Shown here: in pieces, positions 6,323 to 49,946 of the stretch
Layout of the letters: every line of letters begins with the position of its first letter
Position numbering within the stretch: the first letter of the stretch is position 1
DNA from: an uncultured Opitutia bacterium
GTDB taxonomy: Bacteria > Verrucomicrobiota > Verrucomicrobiia > Opitutales > Opitutaceae
DNA: 64,000 bases
Direction: 5' to 3'
Assembly: GCA_903877135.1 (NCBI GenBank)
Contig: CAIRCN010000068.1
Location: forward strand, 1-64,000
Notes under the pieces: model-generated
The model's input: only the letters and a program-made list of their open reading frames with translations
Database searches by the model: none
Told to the model about the DNA's origin: nothing
Made by a program: the position numbers and the translations under genes

Positions 6323-7768
6323 TCAGTCAGATAGTCCGGACTCGGCGGGCACGGTGAAGAAGAATGTGGCCCCGGCGTCGGGCGCAGCTTCGGCCCAGAT
6401 GCGCCCGCCGTGGCGCTCGATGATGCGCCGCACGGTGGCGAGGCCCACCCCGGTGCCTTCAAACTCGTGGAGGTGGTGCAGGCGCTTGAACAGGCCGAAC
6501 AGCTTGTCGGCATTGTGCATGTCGAAGCCGACGCCGTTGTCGCGCACGAAGAAAACCGGCGTGACTTCGTTGGCGGGGTGCGTGACGCCGATTTCGATGA
6601 CGGCGGGATCGCGCGGCCGAGAATACTTGAGCGCGTTGGAAAGGAGGTTGACGAACACGACCCGCAGCAGGGCGGGGTCGCCGTAGACGACCGGCAACGC
6701 CACGAGGCGCAGTTCGATGTGGCGGCCCTGGTGCTCGCGCTCGAGTTCCTTAAACACCTCGCGGCACAGGTGAGCGGGCTCGACCGTCTGCCGGGTGAGC
6801 GCCTGCCGGCCGAGTCGGGAAAAGGCGAGGAGATCGGTGATCAGCTGGCTCATCTGACTAGAACCGTCGTGAATCTGGCCGATATAGCGGCGCACGTCGG
6901 CCGGCATCGTGTCCGAGTGGTGGGCGAGCAAAATGTCGGTGAATCCGGTGATGGCGCGAATTGGTGTGCGCAAGTCGTGGGCGGCGGAGGAGCAGAAGGC
7001 CTCCAGTTCGTCGTTCGCCGCCTCAAGTTCCGCCGTGCGCTCGCGGACGCGTTTTTCCAGCTCGGCGTTTTGCGCCTCGATTTGCGCGAGCATGTGGTTG
7101 AACGCGTCGGTGAGCAGGCCCAGTTCGTCGTCGCCGTATTTCGAGGCGCGCACCGCATAGTCGCGCCGCTCGGAGACCGCCCGGGCGGTCTCCGCCAGCG
7201 CGAGCACCGGCCGGGAAATCTGCCGTTGGAGGGTCCGCGACAACAAATAGGCGACCAGAATGGAAACCGCCATCACCAGCACGGCGATGCCGCCATACAG
7301 GCGCAATCGCTCATACATCGCATCGAGGTCGGAGCGGAGATAAAGCGTCCCGAGCCGCTGACTGCCCTTGACCTGCACGACGGGCGTGAAGCCGACCAAG
7401 TAGCCGCCGGCAAAACGAAAGCCGTCTACTGCCGGCGCCGAGGGGAATCGGCCGGCGGGCGCGTTGGCGGGATAACGGGAGAAAAGCCGGCCGTTCGCGT
7501 CGTAGAGACAGGCTGAGACGATGTGGCGTTCGGCCTTGAGCGCGGCCAGGACTTGCGCGGCGTCCTCGGAGTTGTCGAAGGCCAGGGCGGCGGTGCTGTT
7601 CGCGGCGATGACTTCGCCGAGCGTCGCGAGCTGCTGGGCCGCCGCCCGGCGAAAGGTGAAAGCCTCGTAACTCAGAAACGCCGCACAGGTCAGCAGCACC
7701 ACCACACCGCTCGTCGCGAGGATGATCGCGGTGAGTTTTTGGCGGATCGGGATGTCTTGAAACGCCAT
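6323..7768 (-). CDS. Sensor histidine kinase (CHASE8-HAMP-HisKA-HATPase)
   Basis: The 481-residue protein has a first membrane helix (about 12-33), a periplasmic region of CHASE8 type (about 38-150), a second helix (about 157-176), a HAMP segment and coiled coil to about 250, then a phosphoacceptor box SSAAHDLRTPIRAI with His264. The ATPase domain shows NLLSNALKYS, DNGVGFD and GTGVGLATVRRI. The kinase half resembles phytochrome-like kinases. It lies 2 bases after yfiR-like in the same operon as a TonB-dependent receptor and a response regulator. The likely partner is the LuxR-type regulator at 10346-11029, which is an inference from the shared operon. Confidence 0.93.
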   Translation of the reverse strand: MAFQDIPIRQKLTAIILATSGVVVLLTCAAFLSYEAFTFRRAAAQQLATLGEVIAANSTAALAFDNSEDAAQVLAALKAERHIVSACLYDANGRLFSRYPANAPAGRFPSAPAVDGFRFAGGYLVGFTPVVQVKGSQRLGTLYLRSDLDAMYERLRLYGGIAVLVMAVSILVAYLLSRTLQRQISRPVLALAETARAVSERRDYAVRASKYGDDELGLLTDAFNHMLAQIEAQNAELEKRVRERTAELEAANDELEAFCSSAAHDLRTPIRAITGFTDILLAHHSDTMPADVRRYIGQIHDGSSQMSQLITDLLAFSRLGRQALTRQTVEPAHLCREVFKELEREHQGRHIELRLVALPVVYGDPALLRVVFVNLLSNALKYSRPRDPAVIEIGVTHPANEVTPVFFVRDNGVGFDMHNADKLFGLFKRLHHLHEFEGTGVGLATVRRIIERHGGRIWAEAAPDAGATFFFTVPAESGLSD

Positions 7769-7770
7769 CG

Positions 7771-8373
7771 TCAGCCTTTCTCCGGGGTGATCATCTTTGC
7801 CAGGCGGAGCAGTTTCGAGCTGATGGCGAGGCCGCTGGCCTTGGCCGCGTCGGGATTGATGCGCAGCCGGATTTTGCCGTTTTCGATGGCCAGCCGCACC
7901 ATCCCGCCGGCGCGTTCGAAACCATCCTCATCGGCCACGGTGAGGACACTGCGGCCGGCGAGCGCCGACACTATTTTGGGGAATTGCCCGGCTTCGGAAC
8001 CGCTGATGAAAAGAATGTGGCAGTCCGCGGAATCGTCGCCGCGGCGGTAGCGTCGCACAATGATCGGGTGTCCTCCCACCTTTTCTCCCCGGACCAATTC
8101 GTCGAGATAACTGCCAAACGGATCTTCGCCCAGCACACCGATCACGATTGGAGCCTGGGCCGTGGCAAAGGCGCGCGCCGGCCATTCGATAAATTGGGGA
8201 AAATTGAAAAGGAAGCCCGCCTTCACCCGATATTCAGCCGAAACCGTCGCGGGTTCCGGTCCGGCCGCCGCGCGGACTCCAGACAGGCACGTCGCCGCGA
8301 CGAACCCAAGCATGCAACCGCGCCGCACGATGCGGGCGATGCGTCCATAGAAAATGGGGTTCAGAAACTCCAT
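7771..8373 (-). CDS. YfiR family periplasmic protein (DUF4154)
   Basis: This 200-residue protein has a basic N terminus and a hydrophobic export segment (about 20-38), then the YfiR/DUF4154 pattern: an EYRVKAGFLFNFPQFIEWP start, IGVLGEDPFG, and GGMVRLAIENGKIRLRINPD near the end. In Pseudomonas, YfiR is a periplasmic repressor of the diguanylate cyclase YfiN; in other genomes the family sits beside TonB receptors and CHASE8 kinases, as here. The ATG at 8373 lies inside the receptor gene (13-base overlap), and the kinase starts 2 bases after its stop. A role in handing a periplasmic signal to the kinase is inference. Confidence 0.88.
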   Translation of the reverse strand: MEFLNPIFYGRIARIVRRGCMLGFVAATCLSGVRAAAGPEPATVSAEYRVKAGFLFNFPQFIEWPARAFATAQAPIVIGVLGEDPFGSYLDELVRGEKVGGHPIIVRRYRRGDDSADCHILFISGSEAGQFPKIVSALAGRSVLTVADEDGFERAGGMVRLAIENGKIRLRINPDAAKASGLAISSKLLRLAKMITPEKG

Positions 8374-10346
8374 GTCGCCTTGGCAAAAACACCGCGCTGG
8401 ATTTCACGGCGGGCGCCGGGCCTGTTAAACTCGGCGTGGTGGCTGTGGAGCAGATTTTGCCCGTTTAGAGAAAGCTCCCACACCGGGGCCGGCCGCCAGC
8501 CGAGGCGCACGTCGGCCTCAGAGTATCCGGGCAGGTTTTGGTTGGCGATCGGTCCAACATAACGGAGATCGGCGTCGCATTCCCAATGCGCGGACAAATC
8601 GAACAGCGAGTGGAGGGAAAACTGATGGTTCGGATCTCGCCCGATGCTGTCGCGTGTGCTGCGGTCGATGGTGCCTGGATTCGGCTCACTGTGGACGCGT
8701 AGCTCGGTATAGCCGGCGCGCAGGCGCCATGCCGAGGTGACACGCCAGTCCGCCGTCAGCTCCGCACCGGTCGAGTGGCCGCGCAGGCCGCTGCTCTGCT
8801 CGACGGGAAACGCCAGCGGAGGAGTGAGGGGTTCGAGGCTGCGCAAATTGCTGTAGTCATTGAAAAAAGTGGCGAGCGAGAGGGCAAATTGCGGGGAGAC
8901 CTGCGCGCGATAGCCAAGCTCGTAAGCCGTCAATTTTTCCGAGACCACGTTGCCGCCGCCCGCGATGCGATAAGGGGGCGTGGCCGGAGAGTAGAGGTCG
9001 CGGTCGATGCGCGACGGCGTGCGCACCGCGCGCGAGATTGAACTCCAGATCGTTTGTTCCCCGCCGGGCGTCCAAGACAGTCGCGCACTCGGTTCAAACT
9101 CAACGCCCGTATATTCGGTATGCTCGACCTTGGTGCCCACCATAAGGTGCAGCCGGTCTTTCCTGAGAGTGATTTCATCTTGAGCAAACGCACTGAACAA
9201 CTGTTGACCGGAACTGGGTGGCAGAAACGCATTCGCCGGAGTGTTGACGATGGCGTCCTCGACCAGGCGATAGCCAACACCCCACACAAAATTGTTGATG
9301 GGGCCAAGTGGGCGTTGGTGCTGGAAGTCCAGGTCATAGGTGTCGATGTCTTGGGTGAATGAACCCGGTATGCGGCGATGCGTGTGGTCGTAGTAGACTT
9401 GCAGCTTCACATTGGAGCCATCGCCGAATGAGCGCGACCAGCGGCCAAGCACATTATTCCCATTGGCGCGGATATTATCGGGACCGACCTGCCCCATGGT
9501 GGCATCGTAGGCATCGCCTTGCACTGTGAAGGTGGTGTCAAGCGGCTGCTCCCAATCCACGCGGAACCCAGTCTGCCCCATGCGCCAGGCGTCGTTCGCG
9601 GTGGGACCGCCAGGTCGGACCGAATCACTTCGGTCGAAATATTTCACGTAAACGCGATAGTAAATATTCGGCGCCAACTTGCCGCCATAACGCGCTTCTT
9701 CCGATTGGCGGAGCTCGGTGCCTCCTCCGCCGACCAGAAGACCGCCTTGGGTGTCCTTCGCGCTCTTCGTTGTGATGTTGATTACGCCGTTGACGGCATT
9801 GGCGCCCCACTGCGTCGCGCCAGGGCCGCTGATAACCTCGATGCGGTCGAGGTCTTCGAGCATCGTGTCCTGCACATCCCAATAAACGCCGGCATAGAGC
9901 GGCGTGTAAACCGAGCGCCCGTCGATCAGCACAAGCATCTTGTCGGCGAAAACATTGTTGAACCCGCGGGACGTGATCGCCCATTGGCGCGAATCAATCT
10001 GTGCCACCTCTAGATTCGACGCCAGCCGCAGGGCCTCGGGCAGGCTGGTGGCGCCGGCGCGGCGGATGTCCTCTCCAGTGATGACCTGGATTGCCGACGC
10101 GGCCTCAGAAAGTTTTTCCGGGTGCTTGGAAACCGATGTCACCTCCAGGTCCATGAGCTGTTCCACGCTCAGTTTTTTCATATCACTGGGAGAAGAAAGC
10201 GGCGACAGCGATTGAGCGTGAAGGGCGCCGCCAAAACAAACCAGGCCGGCAATCAACATCATCGCAGGCGCTCGCCAGTGGCCCTGTGGTGCCTGACAAA
10301 CCCGTGTGCTGGCGCCGGGCAGCAAATGTTGTCGCAGGAATTGCAT
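8361..10346 (-). CDS. TonB-dependent outer-membrane receptor
   Basis: The 661-residue product has a signal peptide (cleavage probably near LHAQS, about residue 45), a plug domain with LVLIDGRSVYTPLYAGVYWD and VISGPGATQWGANAVNGVIN, and a 22-strand-type barrel ending in an aromatic residue (ATWSF). The segment LSVEQLMDLEVTSVSK before the plug is typical of the receptor group found with YfiR and histidine kinases. I place the start at the ATG at 10346, where TGATG overlaps the response-regulator stop by one base; a TTG 27 bases upstream is the alternative. The ligand cannot be read from sequence. Confidence 0.92.
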   Translation of the reverse strand: MQFLRQHLLPGASTRVCQAPQGHWRAPAMMLIAGLVCFGGALHAQSLSPLSSPSDMKKLSVEQLMDLEVTSVSKHPEKLSEAASAIQVITGEDIRRAGATSLPEALRLASNLEVAQIDSRQWAITSRGFNNVFADKMLVLIDGRSVYTPLYAGVYWDVQDTMLEDLDRIEVISGPGATQWGANAVNGVINITTKSAKDTQGGLLVGGGGTELRQSEEARYGGKLAPNIYYRVYVKYFDRSDSVRPGGPTANDAWRMGQTGFRVDWEQPLDTTFTVQGDAYDATMGQVGPDNIRANGNNVLGRWSRSFGDGSNVKLQVYYDHTHRRIPGSFTQDIDTYDLDFQHQRPLGPINNFVWGVGYRLVEDAIVNTPANAFLPPSSGQQLFSAFAQDEITLRKDRLHLMVGTKVEHTEYTGVEFEPSARLSWTPGGEQTIWSSISRAVRTPSRIDRDLYSPATPPYRIAGGGNVVSEKLTAYELGYRAQVSPQFALSLATFFNDYSNLRSLEPLTPPLAFPVEQSSGLRGHSTGAELTADWRVTSAWRLRAGYTELRVHSEPNPGTIDRSTRDSIGRDPNHQFSLHSLFDLSAHWECDADLRYVGPIANQNLPGYSEADVRLGWRPAPVWELSLNGQNLLHSHHAEFNRPGARREIQRGVFAKATWSF

Positions 10347-15512: not shown

Positions 15513-17771
15513 CTACGCTTCGTAGAGAGTGCGCAGTTCGCCGTCGGTGCGGCGCAGCCGGAGCGCCAGCGCGCGGGCGATACGGGCGAAAACTTTCACG
15601 CCGACGAGCGGGTGCTCACGCGAGACCTCATTGAAGCGCGCGCGGGAGATGACGAAGAGGTCAGTGTCCGTCGTTGCCACGGCATTGGCCGAGCGGATGC
15701 CGCGGTCGAGAAACGCCACCTCGCCGAAAAAGTCTCCCGTGCCGAAGGAGGCGAGATTGTGGTAATTACCGCCGTGCAGCGGCAGGATGATGCGGACGAC
15801 GCCGCGTCGGATGAGAAACAGTTCGTCGCCTACCTCGCCGCCTTGGAAAATCATCTGCCCGGCGGCGCACGAGCGCTCAACCACACACGAAGCCAGCGCG
15901 CCGAGCGTCTGGTCAGCCTTGAACTCGCGCAGCAGCTCGATCTCGGCAAGCGAGAGCGGCCGGTCGCAGGCGTCGGGGCGGGGCAGTTCGGCGGCGAGGA
16001 TCCGATCCTCGACCCACTGCAGCGCGTCGTCGAGCGTGTCGAACTTACGGACGTTTTCCTGCGGCTTCGTGACACCAACGCGGTCGAAATAGACTTGGAG
16101 ATTCTGGCCGGTCGGCAGGATGGCGGGCAGCCGGCTGAAGAGGAGGTAACCGCCGCGGTCGGTGAGCATCGCCTCGAACTGCTCGAGCAGGTGCGCCGCG
16201 GTGAAGTCCACCGAGTGCACGCGGCGCATGTCGAGGATGAGGTAGCGGCAGCGCTTTAGGTCGGGTTCAAGTTCTGTGAACAGCTGATCGGTGGTGCCGA
16301 AGAAAAGGCTGCCCTGCAGCTCGCACACCGTCGTGAGCGACCCGTGTTTTTCCAGCACCGCTTGTTCGGCCGGGAGACGGTGCTGCTTCGAGGAGATTTT
16401 TTCGCCGGACACTTTCCAGCGGATCACCGAGCCGTGGATCTGTTCGCGGATGAAGAGCAGAATCGCAAGGGCGAGGCCCGCGCCGGCGGCGGCGATAAGG
16501 TTGACGCCGACCGCCACAACGATGACGGCGGCGATGACGATGAAATCCAGCGCGGTCGACCGCTGCCGCAGCAGCGCAAAGCTGCCCCAATCAAACATGC
16601 GGAACGCGACGACGAACAGGATGCCCGCCAGTGCACCGAGTGGCACCCAGGCGATCAGGTTGCCAAACACTAGAAACACCGCGAGCACGCAGGCACCCTC
16701 GATCGCGCCGGAGAGGCGCGTGCGCCCGCCACTTTGGACATTGACGAGCGTCGCGCCCATCGTGCCGGAGCCCGGCATGCCGCCGATCAGCGCCGAGGCG
16801 AGATTGCCCGCGCCCTGGCCGATCAACTCGCGGTTCGAGTTGTGCCGGCTGCGGGTGAGCGCGTCGACAACGACGCAGGTTTTCAGAGTGTCGACCGAGA
16901 GCAGCACCGAGAGGGTTAAGGCCGGCACGATGATGACACCCAAATCGGTGAAATGCAGCGCAGTGACCGCCGAGCAGCGGCCGGCGAATTCAGAAAACAC
17001 CAGGCCGGCGCCGCCGCCCACCGGGCCGATCACGAGCTTGTTGTGCGCGAGGTCGAGCAGTGCGGGCTGGAACCACGCCAGCACAAAGTAGGCCGCCAGG
17101 CCGCAGAGGAGACCGAGGATGGCTGCCGGCACGGCCTTGGTGACCTTGGGCGCAAGCAGCACGCCGGCGATCGTCACGCCGCCCACAATGAGCGCGGGCC
17201 ATTGCCACAGCTGTGGCGACATGACGCCGGTCCACGTCGGCACTCCCTTGGGCAGGCCAAGAAACTTCGGCACCTGGCTCATAAAAATGAGGACACCGAC
17301 GCCGCTTAGGTAGCCCGAGACGACCGGGTAGGGAATGTATTTGATCAGCCGGCCTCCACCGATGGTCCCGTAGAGAAACTGCAACGCGCCAGAGAGAAGC
17401 GCCACGAAGGTCAGCAGCACCACGATGCGCTCGGGGGCGAGGGGTGCCACCGTGCCGGGGGCGCCGGCCATCAGCTCACCGACAAGTGCCGCCAGCACGG
17501 CTGCCGCCGGAGCGCAGGGCGCGGAGATCAGCCGCGGCGCGCCACCCAGCAGCGGGGCGGTCAACCCGATCGCGATGGCGCCGAGGATGCCCGCGCGCAC
17601 GCCGTAGCCGACATAGTTGGCGCCCAGCAACGCATAGATCGCGATGCCGTAGGCGATCGACGAGGGCAGCGCGACCAACATGGCGGCGAAACCACCCCAA
17701 GCATCGCCCGCCAGGTCTTTTGACCAGGTAAGGGCGGGGCTGGCGGTGTGGTTAGCCGAGGTAGCAGGCAT
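15513..17771 (-). CDS. SulP-family anion transporter with STAS and cyclic-nucleotide-binding domains
   Basis: This 752-residue protein begins with a SulP transport core of about 10-14 membrane helices (residues about 20-440). A STAS domain follows (about 480-590, LILDMRRVHSVDFTAAH), then a C-terminal cNMP-binding domain (about 640-745) with FFGEVAFLDRGIRSANAVA, which retains the GE and Arg that grip the cyclic phosphate. Transport of sulfate, bicarbonate or another anion is possible. The start at 17771 is only 5 bases after the PPK2 stop, so it is the third gene of the adenylate kinase-PPK2 operon. Direct control by cAMP or a related nucleotide is suggested by the domain but untested. Confidence 0.9.
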   Translation of the reverse strand: MPATSANHTASPALTWSKDLAGDAWGGFAAMLVALPSSIAYGIAIYALLGANYVGYGVRAGILGAIAIGLTAPLLGGAPRLISAPCAPAAAVLAALVGELMAGAPGTVAPLAPERIVVLLTFVALLSGALQFLYGTIGGGRLIKYIPYPVVSGYLSGVGVLIFMSQVPKFLGLPKGVPTWTGVMSPQLWQWPALIVGGVTIAGVLLAPKVTKAVPAAILGLLCGLAAYFVLAWFQPALLDLAHNKLVIGPVGGGAGLVFSEFAGRCSAVTALHFTDLGVIIVPALTLSVLLSVDTLKTCVVVDALTRSRHNSNRELIGQGAGNLASALIGGMPGSGTMGATLVNVQSGGRTRLSGAIEGACVLAVFLVFGNLIAWVPLGALAGILFVVAFRMFDWGSFALLRQRSTALDFIVIAAVIVVAVGVNLIAAAGAGLALAILLFIREQIHGSVIRWKVSGEKISSKQHRLPAEQAVLEKHGSLTTVCELQGSLFFGTTDQLFTELEPDLKRCRYLILDMRRVHSVDFTAAHLLEQFEAMLTDRGGYLLFSRLPAILPTGQNLQVYFDRVGVTKPQENVRKFDTLDDALQWVEDRILAAELPRPDACDRPLSLAEIELLREFKADQTLGALASCVVERSCAAGQMIFQGGEVGDELFLIRRGVVRIILPLHGGNYHNLASFGTGDFFGEVAFLDRGIRSANAVATTDTDLFVISRARFNEVSREHPLVGVKVFARIARALALRLRRTDGELRTLYEA

Positions 17772-17776
17772 GACGG

Positions 17777-19282
17777 TCAGAGCGCGACTTCGAGACTTTG
17801 CACCACGGTTTTCAAAATCTGCACGCGGGCGAACTTTTTGTCGTTGCCGGCGACGAGGGTCCACGGGGCGAACTCAGTGCTGCACTTTGCCACCAGGTCG
17901 TTCACGGCGAGTTTGTAAGGCTCCCACTTCTCGCGGTTGCGCCAGTCCTCGTCGGTGATTTTGTATTGTTTGTAGGCCACGGTCTGCCGCTCCTTGAAGC
18001 GCCGCAGTTGCTCCTGCTTGCTGATGTGCACCCAGAATTTGTTCACCACGATGCCGTGGGCGGTGAGCTGCTCCTCGAAGTCGTTGATCTCCCCGTAGGC
18101 GCGGCCCCAGTCCGCAGGCGGTGCGAAACCTTCGACGCGCTCGACGAGCACGCGGCCATACCACGAGCGGTCGAAGAACGTCGTGAAACCGGCGCGCGGC
18201 AGGTGCCGCCAGAAACGCCAGAGATAATGCTGCGCCCGCTCCTCGTCGGTGGGCGCAGCGATGCCGACTACGGCGTAGAGCCGCGGGTCCATCGCCTGCG
18301 TGACGCGCCGGATCGCACTGCCCTTGCCGGCGGCATCCCAGCCCTCGAAGAGGAGGACCATCGAGCGTTTCTTGGCGTGCGCGGCCCACGCGAGCTTGCT
18401 GAGCTTGGCCTGTTGCGCGGCAAGTGACTTTTCATACTCGGTGTCGGTGAGGCGCTGCTTCAAATCCACGTGGTCGAGAATGGAGTCGACTGAGATTGCA
18501 GCTAGTTTGGCCGGCTCGGGGACCGAAACTGCGACAGGCGCGGGCGCAGCCTTGGCGGCTTCTTTGGCGGCAGCCTGTGCCGCCGCCTGCTTCAGCCGGC
18601 GTAGGATCGCGTCGAGGAGAATCTTGCCGACGGCGAGTTCGCGGTGGCGGCGGTCGGTGGCCTCGACGACGTGCCAGGGGGCGGCGTCGGTGTGGGTGCG
18701 GCGGAGGGAGCGCTCGGAAACTTTGGCAAACTCGTCGAAGAGCTTGAAGTTCTTCCAGTCGTCGGGCGCAATGCGGCCCTCCTTGTCGAGTTTCTTGAGC
18801 CGCTTTTTCTGCTCCTTTTTCGGCAGATGCAGCCAGAGCTTCACGAGGAGCGCGCCATCCTCGGCTAGCATTTTCTCGAAGGCGACAATCTGGTCGAGCG
18901 CGGAGTCGAACTGACTGCGCTTGGTCTTGCCGAAGACGCGGTCGACAATGGGATCGGTATACCAAGAGCCGAAGAAAATCCCGATGCGGCCGCGGCCAGG
19001 CATGGCGCGCCAGAAACGCCAGTAGGGCGGGCGCTCGCACTCCTCGTCGCTGGGCTCCCAGAAGGCGTGGGTTTCGACGCCACGCGGGTCGAGCCACTCG
19101 TTGAGGCGGTGCACGAGATCGCCTTTGCCGGCGCCATCTGCGCCGGAGACGATGACGATCACGGGGAATTTTTTTCCACGCAGCTCGAAATGCGCGTTGA
19201 GAACTTTCTCCCGCAGTTTCGGCAGCTCGACGGCATATTTTTCGGGCGTCACAGTGCGGCCCAATTCGGCATTTTCAAACAT
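17777..19282 (-). CDS. pap: Two-domain PPK2: polyphosphate:AMP phosphotransferase
   Basis: The 501-residue protein holds two tandem PPK2 domains. Domain 1 (about 10-225) has a Walker A GADGAGKGD but an altered FGSWYTDPIVD where active domains have DRSWY. Domain 2 (about 275-500) has GWDAAGKGS and FDRSWYGRVLVERVEG, the intact set. An Ala-rich linker joins them. This is the class II PPK2 architecture, known in PAP enzymes to phosphorylate AMP to ADP using polyphosphate, with the C-terminal domain catalytic. A good ribosome site lies 6 bases before the ATG at 19282. It sits 14 bases after a tandem adenylate kinase gene, the enzyme that would convert the ADP formed to ATP. Confidence 0.93.
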   Translation of the reverse strand: MFENAELGRTVTPEKYAVELPKLREKVLNAHFELRGKKFPVIVIVSGADGAGKGDLVHRLNEWLDPRGVETHAFWEPSDEECERPPYWRFWRAMPGRGRIGIFFGSWYTDPIVDRVFGKTKRSQFDSALDQIVAFEKMLAEDGALLVKLWLHLPKKEQKKRLKKLDKEGRIAPDDWKNFKLFDEFAKVSERSLRRTHTDAAPWHVVEATDRRHRELAVGKILLDAILRRLKQAAAQAAAKEAAKAAPAPVAVSVPEPAKLAAISVDSILDHVDLKQRLTDTEYEKSLAAQQAKLSKLAWAAHAKKRSMVLLFEGWDAAGKGSAIRRVTQAMDPRLYAVVGIAAPTDEERAQHYLWRFWRHLPRAGFTTFFDRSWYGRVLVERVEGFAPPADWGRAYGEINDFEEQLTAHGIVVNKFWVHISKQEQLRRFKERQTVAYKQYKITDEDWRNREKWEPYKLAVNDLVAKCSTEFAPWTLVAGNDKKFARVQILKTVVQSLEVAL

Positions 19283-19288
19283 GGTGGA

Positions 19289-19294
19289 CTCCTT
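19289..19294 (-). promoter_or_regulatory. Shine-Dalgarno AAGGAG for the PPK2 gene
   Basis: AAGGAG lies 6 bases before the ATG at 19282 and fixes this start rather than the open frame extending to 19528. It overlaps neither gene and sits in the short adk-pap junction. Confidence 0.75.
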
Positions 19295-19296
19295 TT

Positions 19297-20721
19297 TCAG
19301 GTGCTTGGGGTGGACTGCGGTTCGCTGGCAAAACTGCGCACGGTCGCAAGGCTGCGCCCGGTAATCTGGCCGACTGTGCCCTCGCCGTCGATCTCGTGCA
19401 ACAGCCCCGCCTCGCGGTAGTAGGCGATCAGCGGTTCGGTCTGCGCGTGGAACGTCACCAGCCGGGCGCGCACGGTGGCGGGATTGTCGTCGGAGCGCTG
19501 ATAAAGTTCGCCGCTGCACAAATCGCACACGCCGTTTTTCGCGGGTGGCTTAAAGAGGACGTGGTAGGGCGACTGGCAACTGCGGCAGATGAGCCGGCCG
19601 GAGAGCCGGTCCACGATCGCGGCGTCGGGCACGTTGATGTAGAGCACGCCGGCGAGGCGGCGCCCCAAGCGGACCATCATCTCGCGAAGCGCCTCAGCCT
19701 GGTGCAGCGTGCGCGGGAAGCCGTCGAGGATAAAGCCCACGTGCGCGTCGGGCCGCGCGAGGCGGTCGGCGACCATCGCATCGGTGATTTCGTCGGGCAC
19801 GAGTTCGCCGCGGTCCATATAGGTTTTCGCCAGACGGCCGAGCTCGGTGGCCTGCCGGAGATTTTCGCGGAACAGGTCACCGGTGGCGATATGGGGCAGG
19901 CTGAGTTGCTTGCTCAGCTGCTCGGCCTGCGTGCCCTTGCCAGAGCCGGGGCCGCCGAGCAGAACGATGTCGCGGCTGGCGCGGACGGGCTGTTCGGGCA
20001 GCCGGCTAGTGGCGACCGCGGCGGAAATCTCGGCGGTCTCCTCGCGGGTGGCGAATCCATAGGTGCCGCTGTGCACGGCTTCCAGAGCCGCGACGAGCCG
20101 CGCATCAACATCGGCGATCAAGCCTTCGCCGGAGATAATAACAAGTTTTTTCGCGTCGCGATAGTGCTCGATTATGGGCTCGATGGTCCGGTGGAAGACG
20201 CGGAGCCGGGCGTTCACCATCTCGGTGGTGTCATCAGGCCGCTGATAGAGCATGCCACCGCAGAGATCACAGACGCCGGGTTGCCGGGCGGGTTTGAGCG
20301 TCTCGTGGTAGGGCGTCTGACACTCGCGGCAGATCAGCCGGCCAGTGAGGCGGCGGACGATTTCCTCGTCGGGCACCTTAAGATAAACCACCGCGTCGAG
20401 GGTGCGGTTGAGTTGGCGCAGCAGTTCGTCGAGAAACTGCACCTGATAGGTGGTGCGCGGGAAGCCATCGAAGAGCGTGCCTTGGTCGAGTGTGAGCGCA
20501 TAGCCCCACTCCTCTATCATTGCATCGACGACCTCGTCGGGCACGAGTTCGCCCTGCGCCATGTATTTGCGCGCAAGGATGCCGAGGGCGCTGTGGGTTT
20601 TGAGATTGTGGCGAAACAGGTCGCCGGTGGCCACATGGCGCAGGTTGAAACGGAGGGCGAGGGCGGCGGCGTGCGTGCCTTTGCCGACACCGGAGGGACC
20701 GAGCAGGGCGAGGTTCATCAT
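19297..20721 (-). CDS. Tandem (fused) adenylate kinase
   Basis: The 474-residue protein contains two complete adenylate kinases head to tail. Unit 1 has the P-loop GPSGVGKGT, ATGDLFR, DGFPRT and a zinc-type lid (CRECQTPYH...CDLC). Unit 2 has GGPGSGKGT, ATGDLFR, DGFPRT and the same four-Cys lid pattern (CRSCQSPYH...CDLC). Normal bacterial Adk is about 215 residues, so this is a full duplication joined by a short linker. Both P-loops look intact, so both halves could be active. It is the first gene of an operon with PPK2 and a SulP transporter. The start may be either of two adjacent ATGs (20721 or 20718). Confidence 0.93.
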   Translation of the reverse strand: MMNLALLGPSGVGKGTHAAALALRFNLRHVATGDLFRHNLKTHSALGILARKYMAQGELVPDEVVDAMIEEWGYALTLDQGTLFDGFPRTTYQVQFLDELLRQLNRTLDAVVYLKVPDEEIVRRLTGRLICRECQTPYHETLKPARQPGVCDLCGGMLYQRPDDTTEMVNARLRVFHRTIEPIIEHYRDAKKLVIISGEGLIADVDARLVAALEAVHSGTYGFATREETAEISAAVATSRLPEQPVRASRDIVLLGGPGSGKGTQAEQLSKQLSLPHIATGDLFRENLRQATELGRLAKTYMDRGELVPDEITDAMVADRLARPDAHVGFILDGFPRTLHQAEALREMMVRLGRRLAGVLYINVPDAAIVDRLSGRLICRSCQSPYHVLFKPPAKNGVCDLCSGELYQRSDDNPATVRARLVTFHAQTEPLIAYYREAGLLHEIDGEGTVGQITGRSLATVRSFASEPQSTPST

Positions 20722-21009
20722 AGGAATTTGCGGTGTTGCAGACGCGCGCTTGGCCACGCGGCACGGCGAGGTGCTGGTGAGGGCTCCTGGCGAAGCGGAC
20801 AAGTTTTCATGGGAGCGCCTTGATGACCGACGGGGCTAATTTTGGCAGAAAACCAGGCTAATGTCTCTTCGTTTCTTGGCGGAAATACCGCATTTCTGAG
20901 AGCTGGGCGCGGGCACGGGAATGTATTTCCGGCGTGGGAGGCGACAGGCTCGCCTGCATTGCGCTGGTGCGAATGCAGGGGGGATTATTGAATTTGCTCC
21001 ACTGACAAT
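20722..21009. other. Intergenic region upstream of the polyP operon
   Basis: These 288 bases separate the operon start (leftward) from the 3' end of the aldo/keto reductase gene. The region must hold the promoter of the adenylate kinase operon. I see no convincing promoter boxes, small gene or repeat. Confidence 0.4.
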
Positions 21010-21947: not shown

Positions 21948-23360
21948 TCAAAAGAACGTGTAGTATTTTCCCGCAGCCATGCGCGAGATGAGGAGCGCGA
22001 GTTCCATCGCGTGGTAATCGCCCCACATCGAGGACTCGCCATTCGGCACTTTCTGGCCCGACGCGACGTGGTCCCAGCCGTTCGGGCGGTGGTAAACACT
22101 GTGGAGCAGCAGACCCTGGTGTTTCTTGTCGGTCGAGAGGTAGGGCTCGGCGAAAAGCGTGTCGGCGATGGTGAGTCCGGCCTGGAGATACCTGCTGCCG
22201 GCGGCTTTTTCGCCGTGCGCGGTGAGATAGTTGCCGAGGCGGATCATGCCTTGCGCAGCGATGGCGGCGGCGGAGCTGTCCACCGGCTCGTGGGCGTTGT
22301 AGGGATCGGCGTTCTTTTTGGTGTAGTCGCCGAGTTGGTGGGTGTTGAGCGCCATCGAATCCCAGTAGGGCACGCCGTCCTTCGCCGAGTAGCCGTCGAT
22401 GTAGTAATCGCTCGCGGCGCGGGCGGTTTCGAGGAAGAGGTCGGTCACGGCGCGGCGGCCGCCCACGGCGTCGAGGTCGGTGCCTTTGACGGCGTCGAGG
22501 AACTCGAGCTGCTCGGCGTAGCCGCAGATGATCCACGCGGCGCCGCGCGTCCACGTCGTGAACGGCGAGTAACCCTGCTGCGACGAGGGGCAGCGGAACT
22601 GGCCGTCGTTGCGGTTAAAAACGCTTTCGTGAGCGACGCGGCCACGGACGTCGTAGCTGTCGCGGCCCTGGCCGAAGAAAACGTTGAAGCGCGCGGTCGT
22701 GGCGGCGTGCTCGATGGCGCGGTGGAGGAGGTTGATGGGCCGGTCGCCCTCGCCCATCAGCGCGTGGCCGAGCTGGTGCGCGACGACGAGCGAGCGCACG
22801 GAGCGGATCGTGTCGGCAAAGAGCGACTGCGGGCCGTTGAAGGAGTAAACGTAGCCGCTGGGCGCGACGCCCGGCGCGCCGGCGACGGGCGACCACGGGG
22901 TTTTGTAGGCGGTGGTGGCATAGCGCGCGGCCTGCACGGCGCCGGAGACTTTCAGAGCGAGCTCGGTGAAGTTGAGTTCGTCCTGGTTGTGCGGGATTTT
23001 CCCCTCGAGAATCAGGCGGCGGAGGTTGCCGTAGGTGGAGACGTTGTTGAACCCGTGGTCGTGCACGCCGACGTGTGAGACGTGCGAGGCCATCAGCTTC
23101 ACCGTTTTCTCGCGGCCGAGCTTAATGAAATCTGCCTCGCCGGTGGCGTCGTATTGCAGGAACGTCATGCCGAACTGGAAGCCCTGCGTCCACTCGGTCC
23201 AGCCGCGCGAGGTGTATTTGCCCTTCACGGTGAAGACAGGCGTGCCCTTGGAGGGGTCCCACGAGGCGTCGATCGCGCGGATCTTCTGGCCGGCGAGTTC
23301 GAAGAGACGGGCGATTTTCTTGCCGAGACGGGTCGGCGTGAGCGTGGCGTTGATCTTCAT
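21948..23360 (-). CDS. Glycoside hydrolase family 88-like (unsaturated glucuronyl hydrolase-like)
   Basis: The 470-residue protein shows GH88-type blocks: WTQGFQFGMTFLQYDATGEA, HDHGFNNVSTYGN, WTRGAAWIICGYAE and the Asp-containing EPVDSSAAAIAAQGM. These form the (alpha/alpha)6 barrel that removes unsaturated uronic acids from lyase products. There is no clear signal peptide, so it probably acts in the cytoplasm on imported oligosaccharides. I chose the ATG at 23360 (MKINATLTPTRLG) over one 14 codons upstream. It is followed within 2 bases by an aldo/keto reductase. No polysaccharide lyase is seen nearby. The family call is good; the exact substrate is not. Confidence 0.82.
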   Translation of the reverse strand: MKINATLTPTRLGKKIARLFELAGQKIRAIDASWDPSKGTPVFTVKGKYTSRGWTEWTQGFQFGMTFLQYDATGEADFIKLGREKTVKLMASHVSHVGVHDHGFNNVSTYGNLRRLILEGKIPHNQDELNFTELALKVSGAVQAARYATTAYKTPWSPVAGAPGVAPSGYVYSFNGPQSLFADTIRSVRSLVVAHQLGHALMGEGDRPINLLHRAIEHAATTARFNVFFGQGRDSYDVRGRVAHESVFNRNDGQFRCPSSQQGYSPFTTWTRGAAWIICGYAEQLEFLDAVKGTDLDAVGGRRAVTDLFLETARAASDYYIDGYSAKDGVPYWDSMALNTHQLGDYTKKNADPYNAHEPVDSSAAAIAAQGMIRLGNYLTAHGEKAAGSRYLQAGLTIADTLFAEPYLSTDKKHQGLLLHSVYHRPNGWDHVASGQKVPNGESSMWGDYHAMELALLISRMAAGKYYTFF

Positions 23361-47681: not shown

Positions 47682-49946
47682 TTAGAATTCGTCGAAGACG
47701 ATCTGGGCCGGCGGCACGCCGAGGGCGGTGAGCATTTTGGCGCAGGCCTTGATCATCAGCGGTGGCCCACAGAGGTAGTATTCGACGGCCGCGGGATTCG
47801 GGTGGTCGCGGAGAGATTGCGCCAGCACGACCTCGTGGATGAAACCGATGGGACCGGTCCATGCGTCTTCCGGCAGCGGCGCAGAAAGCGCAAGGTGGAA
47901 GGAGAAACTCGGGTGCGTGGCCGCGAGGGCGGTGAAATAGTCGTCGTAGAAAATCTCCTGCCGCGAGCGCGCGCCATACCAGTAGCTGACCTTGCGGTGC
48001 GATTGCTCCGTCTCGAACAGGTGTGAGAGGTGGGCGCGGAGCGGGGCCATGCCGGCGCCGCCGCCGATGTAAACCGCCTCTTTCTGCGTGGGCTTCAGGT
48101 GAAAATCGCCGAAGGGGCCGATGGCGGTGACGGCGTCGCCGGGCTTCAGGCTGAAGACGTAGGCGGAGCCGACGCCGGGCGGGCAGTCTTGGCCGGGCGG
48201 GGGCGTGGCGATGCGGACGTTGAAGCGGAGCGCGCGCTCGGACCGGGCGTTGCTGGCGAACGAGTAGTTGTTGCGCCGGCCGGTGGCCGCGTGACGCGCC
48301 ACGAGGTCAAACACGTGCTGGCGCTCCCAGACGGCGGCGTAGGGCGCGGGAATGTCGAAGTCGCGGAAGCGGATTTCGGCGTAGGCCGGGATGTCGAACT
48401 GCAGGTAGTCGCCGGGAGAGAAGGCAATTTTATCGGCGGCATTGGCGGGCTCGAGGACGAGTTCCTTGATAAAGGTGGCAACGCTGCGGTTGGAGACGAC
48501 GCGGAACTGGAAGGTTTGCTGGGCGCGGGCGCCGGCGCCGCCGGGACGCGTGAGGTTCAGGTGGAGGCGGCCGTGGCGCTCTTCTAGCGGATAGGTGACG
48601 AGGCCGCGGCACACGGGTGGGCGCGCCGGTGAGCCATCGGCGAGGTGGTAGCGACCATTGTGCTTGGGGCACTCGATGAGCGGGCCCTTCACGAAGCCAT
48701 CGGAGAGGTGGGTGTTGCCGTGCGTGCAGACGCCGTCGGTGGCGTAGAGCTGGCCGGCGGCAGCGCGGTAGAGCGCATAGGTTTTCTGACCGTGATCGAA
48801 ACGGAGGACATCCTCGCGACCGAGGTCGGCGGCGGCACAGACCTCGAGCCAGCCGTCGGCGTCAGGTTGGACTTCGGCGGGCGCAGCAGCGGCGGCGCGC
48901 GCGGGTGGCGGAGGGAGTTTGCGCCGCACGAAATGGCCGGGGTCTTTCACCTGACGCAGGACGGTGGGAATGATTTCGCGAAAGGCCTCGGCGATGCTGC
49001 CGTAGGGCGTGGGCATGTCGTGTTTTACGAGAGCGTGGAGACGGGGCAGCGCGTGGTAGGGCACCAGCGGGAACATGTGGTGTTCCACGTGGTAGTTCAT
49101 ATTCCAGTAGAGATACCGGTGAATCGGATTCATGTAGACCGTCCGACAGTTGAGGCGGTGATCGAGGACGTTCTCGGCGAGCCCAGCGTGCTGGGTGTAG
49201 CCGTAGATGAGCATCAGCCACGTGCCGAAGATATTGGCCAGGCCCACATACATCAGGGGCAGGATGCTCCGCGTGGAGATCGCGAGCACGATGACCGCCG
49301 CGTAGATCAGCAGGTGGATCCGCGCCTTAAAGTAGATCTTGGGAAACTCGCTCTCGGGGATGTAGGTTTTTTCCTCGGGCAGCATGCGGCCGACGGAGTG
49401 GTTGAGGATCTGCGTGAAGTATTTCTGGTAAACGCCGAGGTTGAAGACCCCGAGGGCCATACGGGTGAGATTGGGCGGACGGGGCACGGCGATCTCGGGG
49501 TCGCGGCCGACGATGATGGTGTCGCTGTGGTGGCGGGTGTGGCTCCAGCGCCAGAGCGTCGATTCGCGCATGACCATGAACGAGGCGACCTCGTAGAGGG
49601 TGTTGTTCATCCAGTCGGTCTTGAAGGCCGTGCCGTGGCCGGCCTCGTGCCAGCGCGAGTCAGACGTGGAGGCGTAGAGCGCGGCATAAACAGCGTAAGG
49701 CAAAATCGCCCACCCTAAGCCCCAGAGGACGAAGGTGGCCCAGCCGGTGCCAAAGATCAGGGCAAACCAAATGATGGTGTCGCGCACGGCCGGGCCGTCG
49801 CGGCGTTCGAGCAGGCGGCGAAACTCCGCGCGGGGCACCGGGCATTGATACCAGTCGGCCTCGGCGAGGCCCTTCTCGATGGCGGCAGCGGCGTTTTCGC
49901 CGACGAGACTGTAGTCGAGCATGACGGCGGGGCGGGCGTTACTCAT
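47682..49946 (-). CDS. Three-domain fusion: desaturase-type hydroxylase, Rieske ferredoxin, NqrF-like reductase
   Basis: The 754-residue protein joins a complete electron chain. Residues 1-340 are a fatty-acid-desaturase-superfamily membrane domain with diiron His boxes HEAGH (100-104), HTRHH (136-140) and HVEHH (286-290). Residues about 365-465 are a Rieske domain with CTHGNTH (Cys407, His409) and CPKHNGRYH (Cys426, His429). Residues about 480-754 are an NAD(P)H:flavin reductase like the C-terminal part of NqrF, with RNNYSFASN for FAD, GGGAGMAPLR and CGPP for NADH. Electrons could flow NADH-FAD-Rieske-diiron in one chain. MocD, MocE and MocF are the separate-gene analogues I would compare. 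The substrate is unknown. It sits next to the feo iron-uptake genes. Confidence 0.9.
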   Translation of the reverse strand: MSNARPAVMLDYSLVGENAAAAIEKGLAEADWYQCPVPRAEFRRLLERRDGPAVRDTIIWFALIFGTGWATFVLWGLGWAILPYAVYAALYASTSDSRWHEAGHGTAFKTDWMNNTLYEVASFMVMRESTLWRWSHTRHHSDTIIVGRDPEIAVPRPPNLTRMALGVFNLGVYQKYFTQILNHSVGRMLPEEKTYIPESEFPKIYFKARIHLLIYAAVIVLAISTRSILPLMYVGLANIFGTWLMLIYGYTQHAGLAENVLDHRLNCRTVYMNPIHRYLYWNMNYHVEHHMFPLVPYHALPRLHALVKHDMPTPYGSIAEAFREIIPTVLRQVKDPGHFVRRKLPPPPARAAAAAPAEVQPDADGWLEVCAAADLGREDVLRFDHGQKTYALYRAAAGQLYATDGVCTHGNTHLSDGFVKGPLIECPKHNGRYHLADGSPARPPVCRGLVTYPLEERHGRLHLNLTRPGGAGARAQQTFQFRVVSNRSVATFIKELVLEPANAADKIAFSPGDYLQFDIPAYAEIRFRDFDIPAPYAAVWERQHVFDLVARHAATGRRNNYSFASNARSERALRFNVRIATPPPGQDCPPGVGSAYVFSLKPGDAVTAIGPFGDFHLKPTQKEAVYIGGGAGMAPLRAHLSHLFETEQSHRKVSYWYGARSRQEIFYDDYFTALAATHPSFSFHLALSAPLPEDAWTGPIGFIHEVVLAQSLRDHPNPAAVEYYLCGPPLMIKACAKMLTALGVPPAQIVFDEF

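Follow-up and report, generated by a model that had tools for sequence, protein, structure and literature searches.

A three-gene cassette conserved within Opitutaceae places genes of a predicted polyphosphate-to-ATP route beside a SulP-STAS-cNMP transporter

The DNA analyzed here (the window) is a stretch of 64,000 nucleotides from an uncultured Opitutia bacterium of the family Opitutaceae, and is part of contig C68 of a 4.23-Mb draft genome that is 97.29% complete. On its minus strand lie three closely spaced genes, encoding a tandem adenylate kinase (tADK), a two-domain PPK2 protein of the polyphosphate:AMP phosphotransferase type (PAP), and a SulP-STAS-cNMP protein, i.e., a SulP-family transporter with a STAS domain and a cyclic nucleotide-binding (cNMP) domain. 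The genes, their domains and the region upstream are as follows.

19297-20721, minus strand: tADK, tandem adenylate kinase of 474 residues with two complete Zn-lid Adk domains (Pfam ADK twice and ADK_lid twice; NCBIfam adenylate kinase models; homologues)
20152-20706, minus strand: N-terminal Adk domain of tADK, core match, with CxxC..CxxC lid and catalytic Lys/Arg kept (domain search, alignment)
19405-19962, minus strand: C-terminal Adk domain of tADK, core match, the 15 residues checked being the same in every one of 26 proteins (domain search, alignment)
17777-19282, minus strand: PAP, two-domain PPK2, polyphosphate:AMP phosphotransferase of 501 residues (TIGR03708 above cut-off; full-length match to 3CZP)
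18590-19243, minus strand: N-terminal PPK2 half, FFGSWYT replacing FDRSWYG, Walker B Asp/Arg gone, predicted inactive (alignment; 3CZP; available part of PMC8776046)
17783-18451, minus strand: C-terminal PPK2 half, EGWDAAGKG and FDRSWYG, predicted catalytic, class II glycine (alignment; class rule from the available part of PMC8776046)
15513-17771, minus strand: SulP-STAS-cNMP protein of 752 residues (Pfam Sulfate_transp, STAS and cNMP_binding)
16527-17714, minus strand: SulP transmembrane domain (Pfam Sulfate_transp), Asp294 aligned with the cation-site Asp of BicA (Pfam, alignment)
16128-16355, minus strand: STAS domain (Pfam)
15615-15875, minus strand: cNMP_binding domain with FFGEVAFLDRGIRSA (Glu684, Arg693) (Pfam, alignment)
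20722-21009, minus strand: upstream intergenic region of 288 nucleotides, the expected site of a promoter, in which none was convincingly recognized

The gaps between the genes are 14 nucleotides (tADK/PAP) and 5 nucleotides (PAP/SulP). These gaps and the three protein lengths, given previously in a reading of the letters alone (the sequence-only reading), were re-derived exactly from the sequence and from Pfam. The mechanically longest open reading frames start further upstream (501, 583 and 783 residues); homologue alignments favored the ATG starts that give 474, 501 and 752 residues, and AGGAG stands before the start codon of PAP. A scan of the locus gave one promoter-like site (mean 0.8 in shuffled sequences) and six terminator-like sites (4.9 in shuffles), neither above shuffles. 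The three genes are predicted to form one transcript.

Conservation of the set was assessed in 252 Opitutaceae genomes, in which presence counts are lower bounds (4-6 candidates were scored per genome). SulP-cNMP was present in 31, the long tADK in 26, and PAP of the cassette type (PAP-A) in 32; 20 genomes had all three. The SulP protein had matched 32 genomes, of which G057 (28% identity) was dropped; a tADK split over two contigs (G134) was counted, the PAPs of G031 and G163 were partial, and that of G073 (50% identity) was counted as PAP-A, being in a cassette. PAP-A occurred in 27 of the 31 genomes with SulP versus 5 of the 221 without (Fisher test, 4e-27), and tADK in 22 of 31 versus 4 of 221 (Fisher test, 1e-20), genomes being treated as independent in both tests despite shared ancestry. 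Of the 27 genomes with both PAP and SulP, PAP immediately preceded SulP in 22; of the 22 with both tADK and PAP, tADK immediately preceded PAP in 21. Because the same three genes, in the same order (tADK>PAP>SulP) and on the same strand, were seen again in 16 of the 252 family genomes, the arrangement exceeds chance. Protein distances of the three genes were concordant (Mantel r 0.66-0.72, 0 of 2000 permutations, 17 sets). Co-occurrence, which the sequence-only reading had named as a check on its proposal of an energy-salvage unit linked to an anion transporter, was borne out in this family set, and the conservation of the three genes lends support to a polyphosphate (polyP)-to-ATP unit that includes a transporter. 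The interpretation that we favor, at a probability of roughly 55%, is that the cassette combines in one package conversion of polyP to ATP with a regulated, cation-coupled anion importer.

Variants of the arrangement were also seen. PAP>SulP occurred without tADK in G023, G101 and G104, and at contig ends in G129 and G031; a single-domain Adk occupied the tADK slot in G176; and in G102 the three genes were each on separate contigs. A second, commoner type of PAP (about 43-51% identical) was found in most of the 159 family genomes with a PAP match, and none of seven loci of that type (L070, L079-L082, L084 and L085), a small control, had a SulP-cNMP neighbor.

Each half of the tADK has the P-loop Lys, NMP-site Arg and lid Arg of adenylate kinases. 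Homologues with 53-70% identity were found in 25 other family genomes. When the 26 proteins were aligned, the equivalents of Lys13, Arg36, Arg88, Arg119, Arg123, Arg156 and Arg167 (numbering that we take to be that of E. coli Adk) and the four lid Cys were present in 26 of 26 C-terminal halves and in 25-26 of 26 N-terminal halves, the N-half exceptions being a gap where one gene is truncated and a change of Arg88 to Gly in G073. The N-terminal half has drifted elsewhere, Thr31 being kept in 22 and Asp33 in 20 of the 26. A regular-expression search had indicated Adk motif losses in both halves; in the alignment most of these proved to be pattern artefacts, the drift at Thr31 and Asp33 remaining. 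The double Adk of the sequence-only reading is upheld in that catalytic residues are kept in both halves, and both are predicted to be active. Mean identity was 45% between N- and C-terminal halves, but 61% among N-terminal and 68% among C-terminal halves, which suggests that duplication took place before the gene set spread. Like the Zn-lid adenylate kinases (e.g., 1ZIN), each half has P-loop, NMP-binding and four-Cys lid residues; unlike them, the tADK has two full domains per chain, from an old duplication. Nothing on tandem or fused Adk was found in the literature searched, from which subscription journals were mostly absent. Tandem Adks of a second kind, which have short lids and share about 30% identity with tADK, were noted in six relatives (L069:6847-8217 in G004, L077:6300-7469 in G056, and in G014, G015, G029 and G033).

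The tADK could be a plain housekeeping adenylate kinase that happens to lie in an operon with two stress genes, and in keeping with this the 97% complete window genome has no other strong PF00406 match. However, no long tADK match was found in 226 of the 252 family genomes, including G001 of the same genus, and a search across the phylum at 1e-80 matched 2 of 387 genomes, both within the family. Of 57 relatives, 40 lacked a strong Adk match, and 39 of these 40 gave a weak match, in many cases in a frame of roughly 400-530 residues. The window genome itself encodes, on contig C42, a divergent Adk-like protein of 447 residues, with a weak ADK match over about 90 residues and no Pfam match in its remaining C-terminal part; its predicted structure is poor (mean pLDDT, the predicted local distance difference test, of 59.7). 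Proteins of this kind are encoded at L008:1207-2547 and L071:5792-7135; five from five families were compared, those of four other families of the order being 50-57% identical to the window genome's copy. This protein is the better candidate for the essential enzyme, and may be a non-canonical housekeeping AMP kinase. A housekeeping role for the tADK is therefore unlikely in our estimate; since it is absent from most relatives, tADK is probably an accessory enzyme, extra to the housekeeping one.

The PAP scored 679.4 bits against TIGR03708, the polyphosphate:AMP phosphotransferase equivalog (cut-off 547.65, model positions 1-493), and matched 3CZP end to end (E 3.8e-170). In an alignment of 32 cassette-type PAPs (31 family genomes and locus L281), the catalytic Asp and Arg, the class II Gly and the Walker A Lys of the C-terminal half were present in all 32, whereas the Walker B Asp of the N-terminal half was absent from all 32, being replaced by Gly (31) or Arg (1). 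According to the available part of PMC8776046, a glycine after Walker B marks class II PPK2, and the motif FDRSWYG in the PAP has it; the same text describes the N-terminal half of PA3455 as inactive. The sequence-only reading of a double, class II PPK2 therefore stands as to the two domains, the AMP phosphotransferase assignment and the class, but only the C-terminal half looks active. The protein resembles P. aeruginosa PPK2C/PA3455 (3CZP) in being a two-domain class II PPK2 matched over its full length, with a degenerate N-terminal and an active C-terminal half, and differs from it in linker and identity only, with no sign of other chemistry.

The two enzymes might instead work in reverse or on other nucleotides, i.e., make polyP from ADP or salvage GMP or dAMP, with Adk as a buffer and the transporter supplying counter-ions for polyP. 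The PAP of Acinetobacter johnsonii can indeed make polyP and uses GMP and dAMP (available part of PMC8776046). However, the window genome has a PPK1 for synthesis, and no synthesis was seen with PA3455, the solved enzyme nearest to this PAP, in the conditions that were tried (available part of PMC8776046). We consider operation of this kind rather improbable, and predict that the cassette runs from polyP towards ATP. The window genome also encodes class III cyclases and, on another contig, a CHAD protein.

Membership of the third protein in the SulP/SLC26 family is shown by scores of 171.4 bits for Sulfate_transp (gathering threshold 23.2) and 34.7 bits for STAS (22.6); the cNMP domain scored 66.2 bits against PF00027 (27.5). 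Its best solved match was 6KI1 (E 7e-46), labelled a low affinity sulfate transporter, which we take to be BicA. Like BicA and SLC26-SulP proteins (6KI1, 5DA0) it has the SulP fold, the STAS domain and the acidic cation-site residue; unlike them it carries an extra C-terminal cNMP-binding domain. An Asp was found at position 294 in 105 of 107 aligned SulP rows. Through the corresponding acidic residue, transport is coupled to Na+ in BicA and to H+ in AtSULTR4;1 (available part of PMC8298490), and BicA-like SulPs of Nitrospira marina have been read as bicarbonate importers (available part of PMC8115632).

A different role for the three genes would be disposal of AMP for sulfur metabolism, in which SulP imports sulfate, sulfate activation yields AMP or PAP nucleotide, and PAP and Adk recharge it with polyP. 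This would fit the domain name, Sulfate_transp, and Adk and AMP recycling do belong to sulfate activation. However, no sulfate-activation gene was recognized beside the cassette in the window (genes further out were only partly scanned), and the best solved relative is 6KI1, presumably BicA. In addition, the Arg that polarizes the sulfate site of AtSULTR4;1 (available part of PMC8298490) has no counterpart at the aligned positions in the 107 rows save one, although sulfate may be a substrate even so. On this evidence a sulfur role seems quite unlikely, and a small anion such as bicarbonate is the predicted cargo of the importer in the favored interpretation.

The residues Glu684 and Arg693 are presumably, by analogy with CRP and PKA, the ribose and phosphate contacts of the phosphate-binding cassette. 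Both are present in the window protein; all 30 family rows have Arg693 and 29 of them Glu684, versus 68 and 34, respectively, of 76 other rows. Given this pattern, a canonical cyclic nucleotide ligand is plausible for the SulPs of Opitutaceae and doubtful for part of the wider group. The sequence-only reading had suggested that the transporter may respond to cyclic nucleotide; the two conserved residues, the class III cyclases in the genome, and a cyclase adjoining SulP in 3 of 77 other loci are consistent with such a response. A plasmid search with the SulP protein gave no match at 1e-60.

Relatives of the SulP-STAS-cNMP protein were found at at least 577 loci. The best 80 of these, which were examined, include Syntrophales, Magnetococcales, Elusimicrobia, Bacteroidetes, Spirochaetes, Methylobacter, Dechloromonas and Ca. 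Accumulibacter, going by record titles. Removal of three family contigs (L216, L220 and L283) left 77 loci for comparison, of which L215, titled Verrucomicrobia, may belong to the family. A PAP gene adjoined SulP-cNMP in six of the 77: the order was SulP>PAP in L217, L218, L219, L262 and L275, and tADK>PAP>SulP in L281, a cassette outside the family genomes (titled Proteobacteria bacterium) with 55% (tADK), 64% (PAP) and 49% (SulP) identity. From the PAP density in 50 genomes that had no adjacent PAP, about 0.11 PAP neighbors would be expected among 77 loci (P = 2e-9 for six, 2e-4 for three). Because L217 and L218 are 94% identical, the six do not represent six independent events, but at most about four lineages. 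A full PAP was encoded elsewhere in 28 of those 50 genomes, versus 2 of 14 controls that were not lineage-matched. A CYTH-CHAD cluster adjoined SulP-cNMP in 7 of the 77 loci (three of them, L217, L240 and L251, domain-scanned); the rest had neither a PAP nor a CYTH-CHAD neighbor. Binding of polyP by CHAD proteins, and their clustering with polyP genes, have been described (available part of PMC10892726). The CYTH-CHAD polyP-granule proteins are thus encoded near SulP-cNMP in other phyla but lie outside the window cassette, the CHAD match of its own genome being on another contig.

In a FastTree phylogeny of the 107 SulPs, 26 family rows formed one supported set, with G073, G159, G010 and the distant G057 elsewhere. 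Non-family rows with PAP linkage fell in three places, and the linkage label required at least 12 changes by parsimony. This scatter argues for PAP linkage to SulP having been repeatedly gained or lost, on a quick tree in which gains and losses are not told apart. It also bears on the view that the genes are neighbors without a functional tie, i.e., a small stress operon spread by horizontal transfer. That view would account for the patchy distribution, for cassette flanks that mostly differ between family genomes, and for the position of the G073 and G159 SulPs outside the main family clade. However, transfer as one block leaves unexplained both the opposite order in L217-L219, L262 and L275 and the CYTH-CHAD neighbors, and the 12 changes likewise tell against it; we judge it very unlikely.

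In the functional cassette that we favor instead, the C-terminal PPK2 half of PAP would transfer phosphate from polyP to AMP, giving ADP, and the tandem Zn-lid Adk would convert 2 ADP to ATP and AMP. As the AMP would return to the first step, it would be catalytic, the net reaction being polyP(n) + ADP > polyP(n-1) + ATP; two Adk sites per chain may keep the second step from being limiting. The SulP domain would bring in an anion, with bicarbonate or a comparable small ion as the likeliest candidate, together with Na+ or H+ via Asp294, with the STAS and cNMP domains gating it, in Opitutaceae probably via cAMP or cGMP, so that the transporter might run while polyP is being spent. The PAP + Adk route from polyP to ATP is already known from polyphosphate-accumulating bacteria (available part of PMC5216660). 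The two reactions are the same as in the PAP + Adk cycle of Acinetobacter johnsonii 210A and Ca. Accumulibacter (available parts of PMC8776046 and PMC5216660), but the window genes are side by side, the Adk is tandem, and a SulP-STAS-cNMP gene follows. Neither the cassette nor a tie of SulP-cNMP to polyP genes was found in the literature searched, and nothing was found there that combined polyphosphate kinase, sulfate permease and cyclic nucleotide-binding; again, subscription journals were mostly outside. The chemistry is known, but the way the genes are arranged, and a link of SulP-cNMP with polyP genes that extends over several phyla, may be undescribed. The tandem Adk and PAP pair would represent a ready-made ATP-regeneration module.

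Several observations weigh against this interpretation. The counted genomes share ancestry. In G007 and G191 tADK lies next to SulP (tADK>SulP) with no PAP between them, and a search of G007 found no PPK2 at all, so that polyP is not the whole story in that genome. In 7 of the 31 family genomes the SulP gene lies away from PAP and tADK (in four on other contigs or distant, in the rest at contig ends), and the G163 PAP is in two pieces in gene calls. The cassette is, moreover, redundant on paper, since contig C26 (L070) of the same genome already holds another two-domain PAP (7315-8796, minus strand), 42% identical to the cassette PAP and divergent from a PPK2 gene (8945-9877, plus strand) of the class I type (TIGR03707, 364 bits), which makes ATP from ADP directly; G001, of the same genus, has matches in the same arrangement. 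As an identification of the transporter, BicA itself was rejected, the score against NF050096 being 226.1 bits for a cut-off of 880. Finally, Glu684 was absent from 42 of the 76 non-family relatives, including two of the six that are PAP-linked and all five loci of polyphosphate-accumulating organisms with universal stress proteins; residue 684 was Gly in these five Accumulibacter/Dechloromonas loci and in L262 and L275, and Asp, Glu and Asp in the cyclase-linked loci.

Phosphorus-removing bacteria store energy in polyP, and the way in which spending of this store is linked to membrane transport is a standing problem. We put forward, as a tentative idea that is at present less probable than not, that in many phyla SulP-STAS-cNMP proteins are an unrecognized arm of polyP energy metabolism. 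They would import bicarbonate or a different small anion together with a cation, under the control of a nucleotide gate that opens or closes with polyP/AMP state. In Opitutaceae this gate would be joined to a polyP-to-ATP enzyme pair of its own; its partners in the Accumulibacter/Dechloromonas lineage would be CHAD and universal stress proteins. The gene set of Opitutaceae, with related linkages around the same transporter in records titled Accumulibacter, Dechloromonas and Syntrophales, provides a concrete protein to test.

Universal stress protein genes follow SulP in five Accumulibacter/Dechloromonas loci and, within the family, occur near the loci of G187, G190, G102, G010 and G122. Genes for the alpha and beta subunits of a 2-oxoacid:ferredoxin oxidoreductase lie directly downstream of SulP in G262, G260 and G191. 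In three Bacteroidota loci SulP is followed by a cyclase gene at distances of 1, 153 and 246 nucleotides. Four Accumulibacter loci have an accA gene (acetyl-CoA carboxylase, a bicarbonate user) downstream of SulP-cNMP, and in three of them it is the next gene; this order may be incidental. The positions of these and other neighbors are as follows.

L179:11362-14231, L180:2739-5635 and L192:9825-12704: 2-oxoacid:ferredoxin oxidoreductase pair, downstream of the cassette SulP
L231:8461-10287, L250:8189-10012 and L294:8338-10179: class III nucleotidyl cyclase carrying an HD domain, immediately after SulP-cNMP, three Bacteroidota loci
L233:8191-9816, L245:8754-10274, L261:8805-10322 and L290:4254-5783: MscS-type channel that has a cNMP-binding domain of its own, close to SulP-cNMP, four loci
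L252:2779-3747, L259:3455-4423, L269:8389-9357 and L243:9780-10748: accA, downstream of SulP-cNMP

In the window itself, the cassette is preceded, 288 nucleotides upstream and on the same strand, by an aldo/keto reductase gene, and followed 48 nucleotides downstream by a PhyH-type gene on the opposite strand. Two genes upstream of the cassette, and 2 nucleotides before the aldo/keto reductase gene, is a gene (21948-23360, minus strand) for a protein of 470 residues with no Pfam match. Further along the window (47682-49946, minus strand) there is a fusion protein of 754 residues in which a fatty-acid desaturase is joined to a Rieske domain and an NAD-binding oxidoreductase domain, i.e., a desaturase with its own electron chain.

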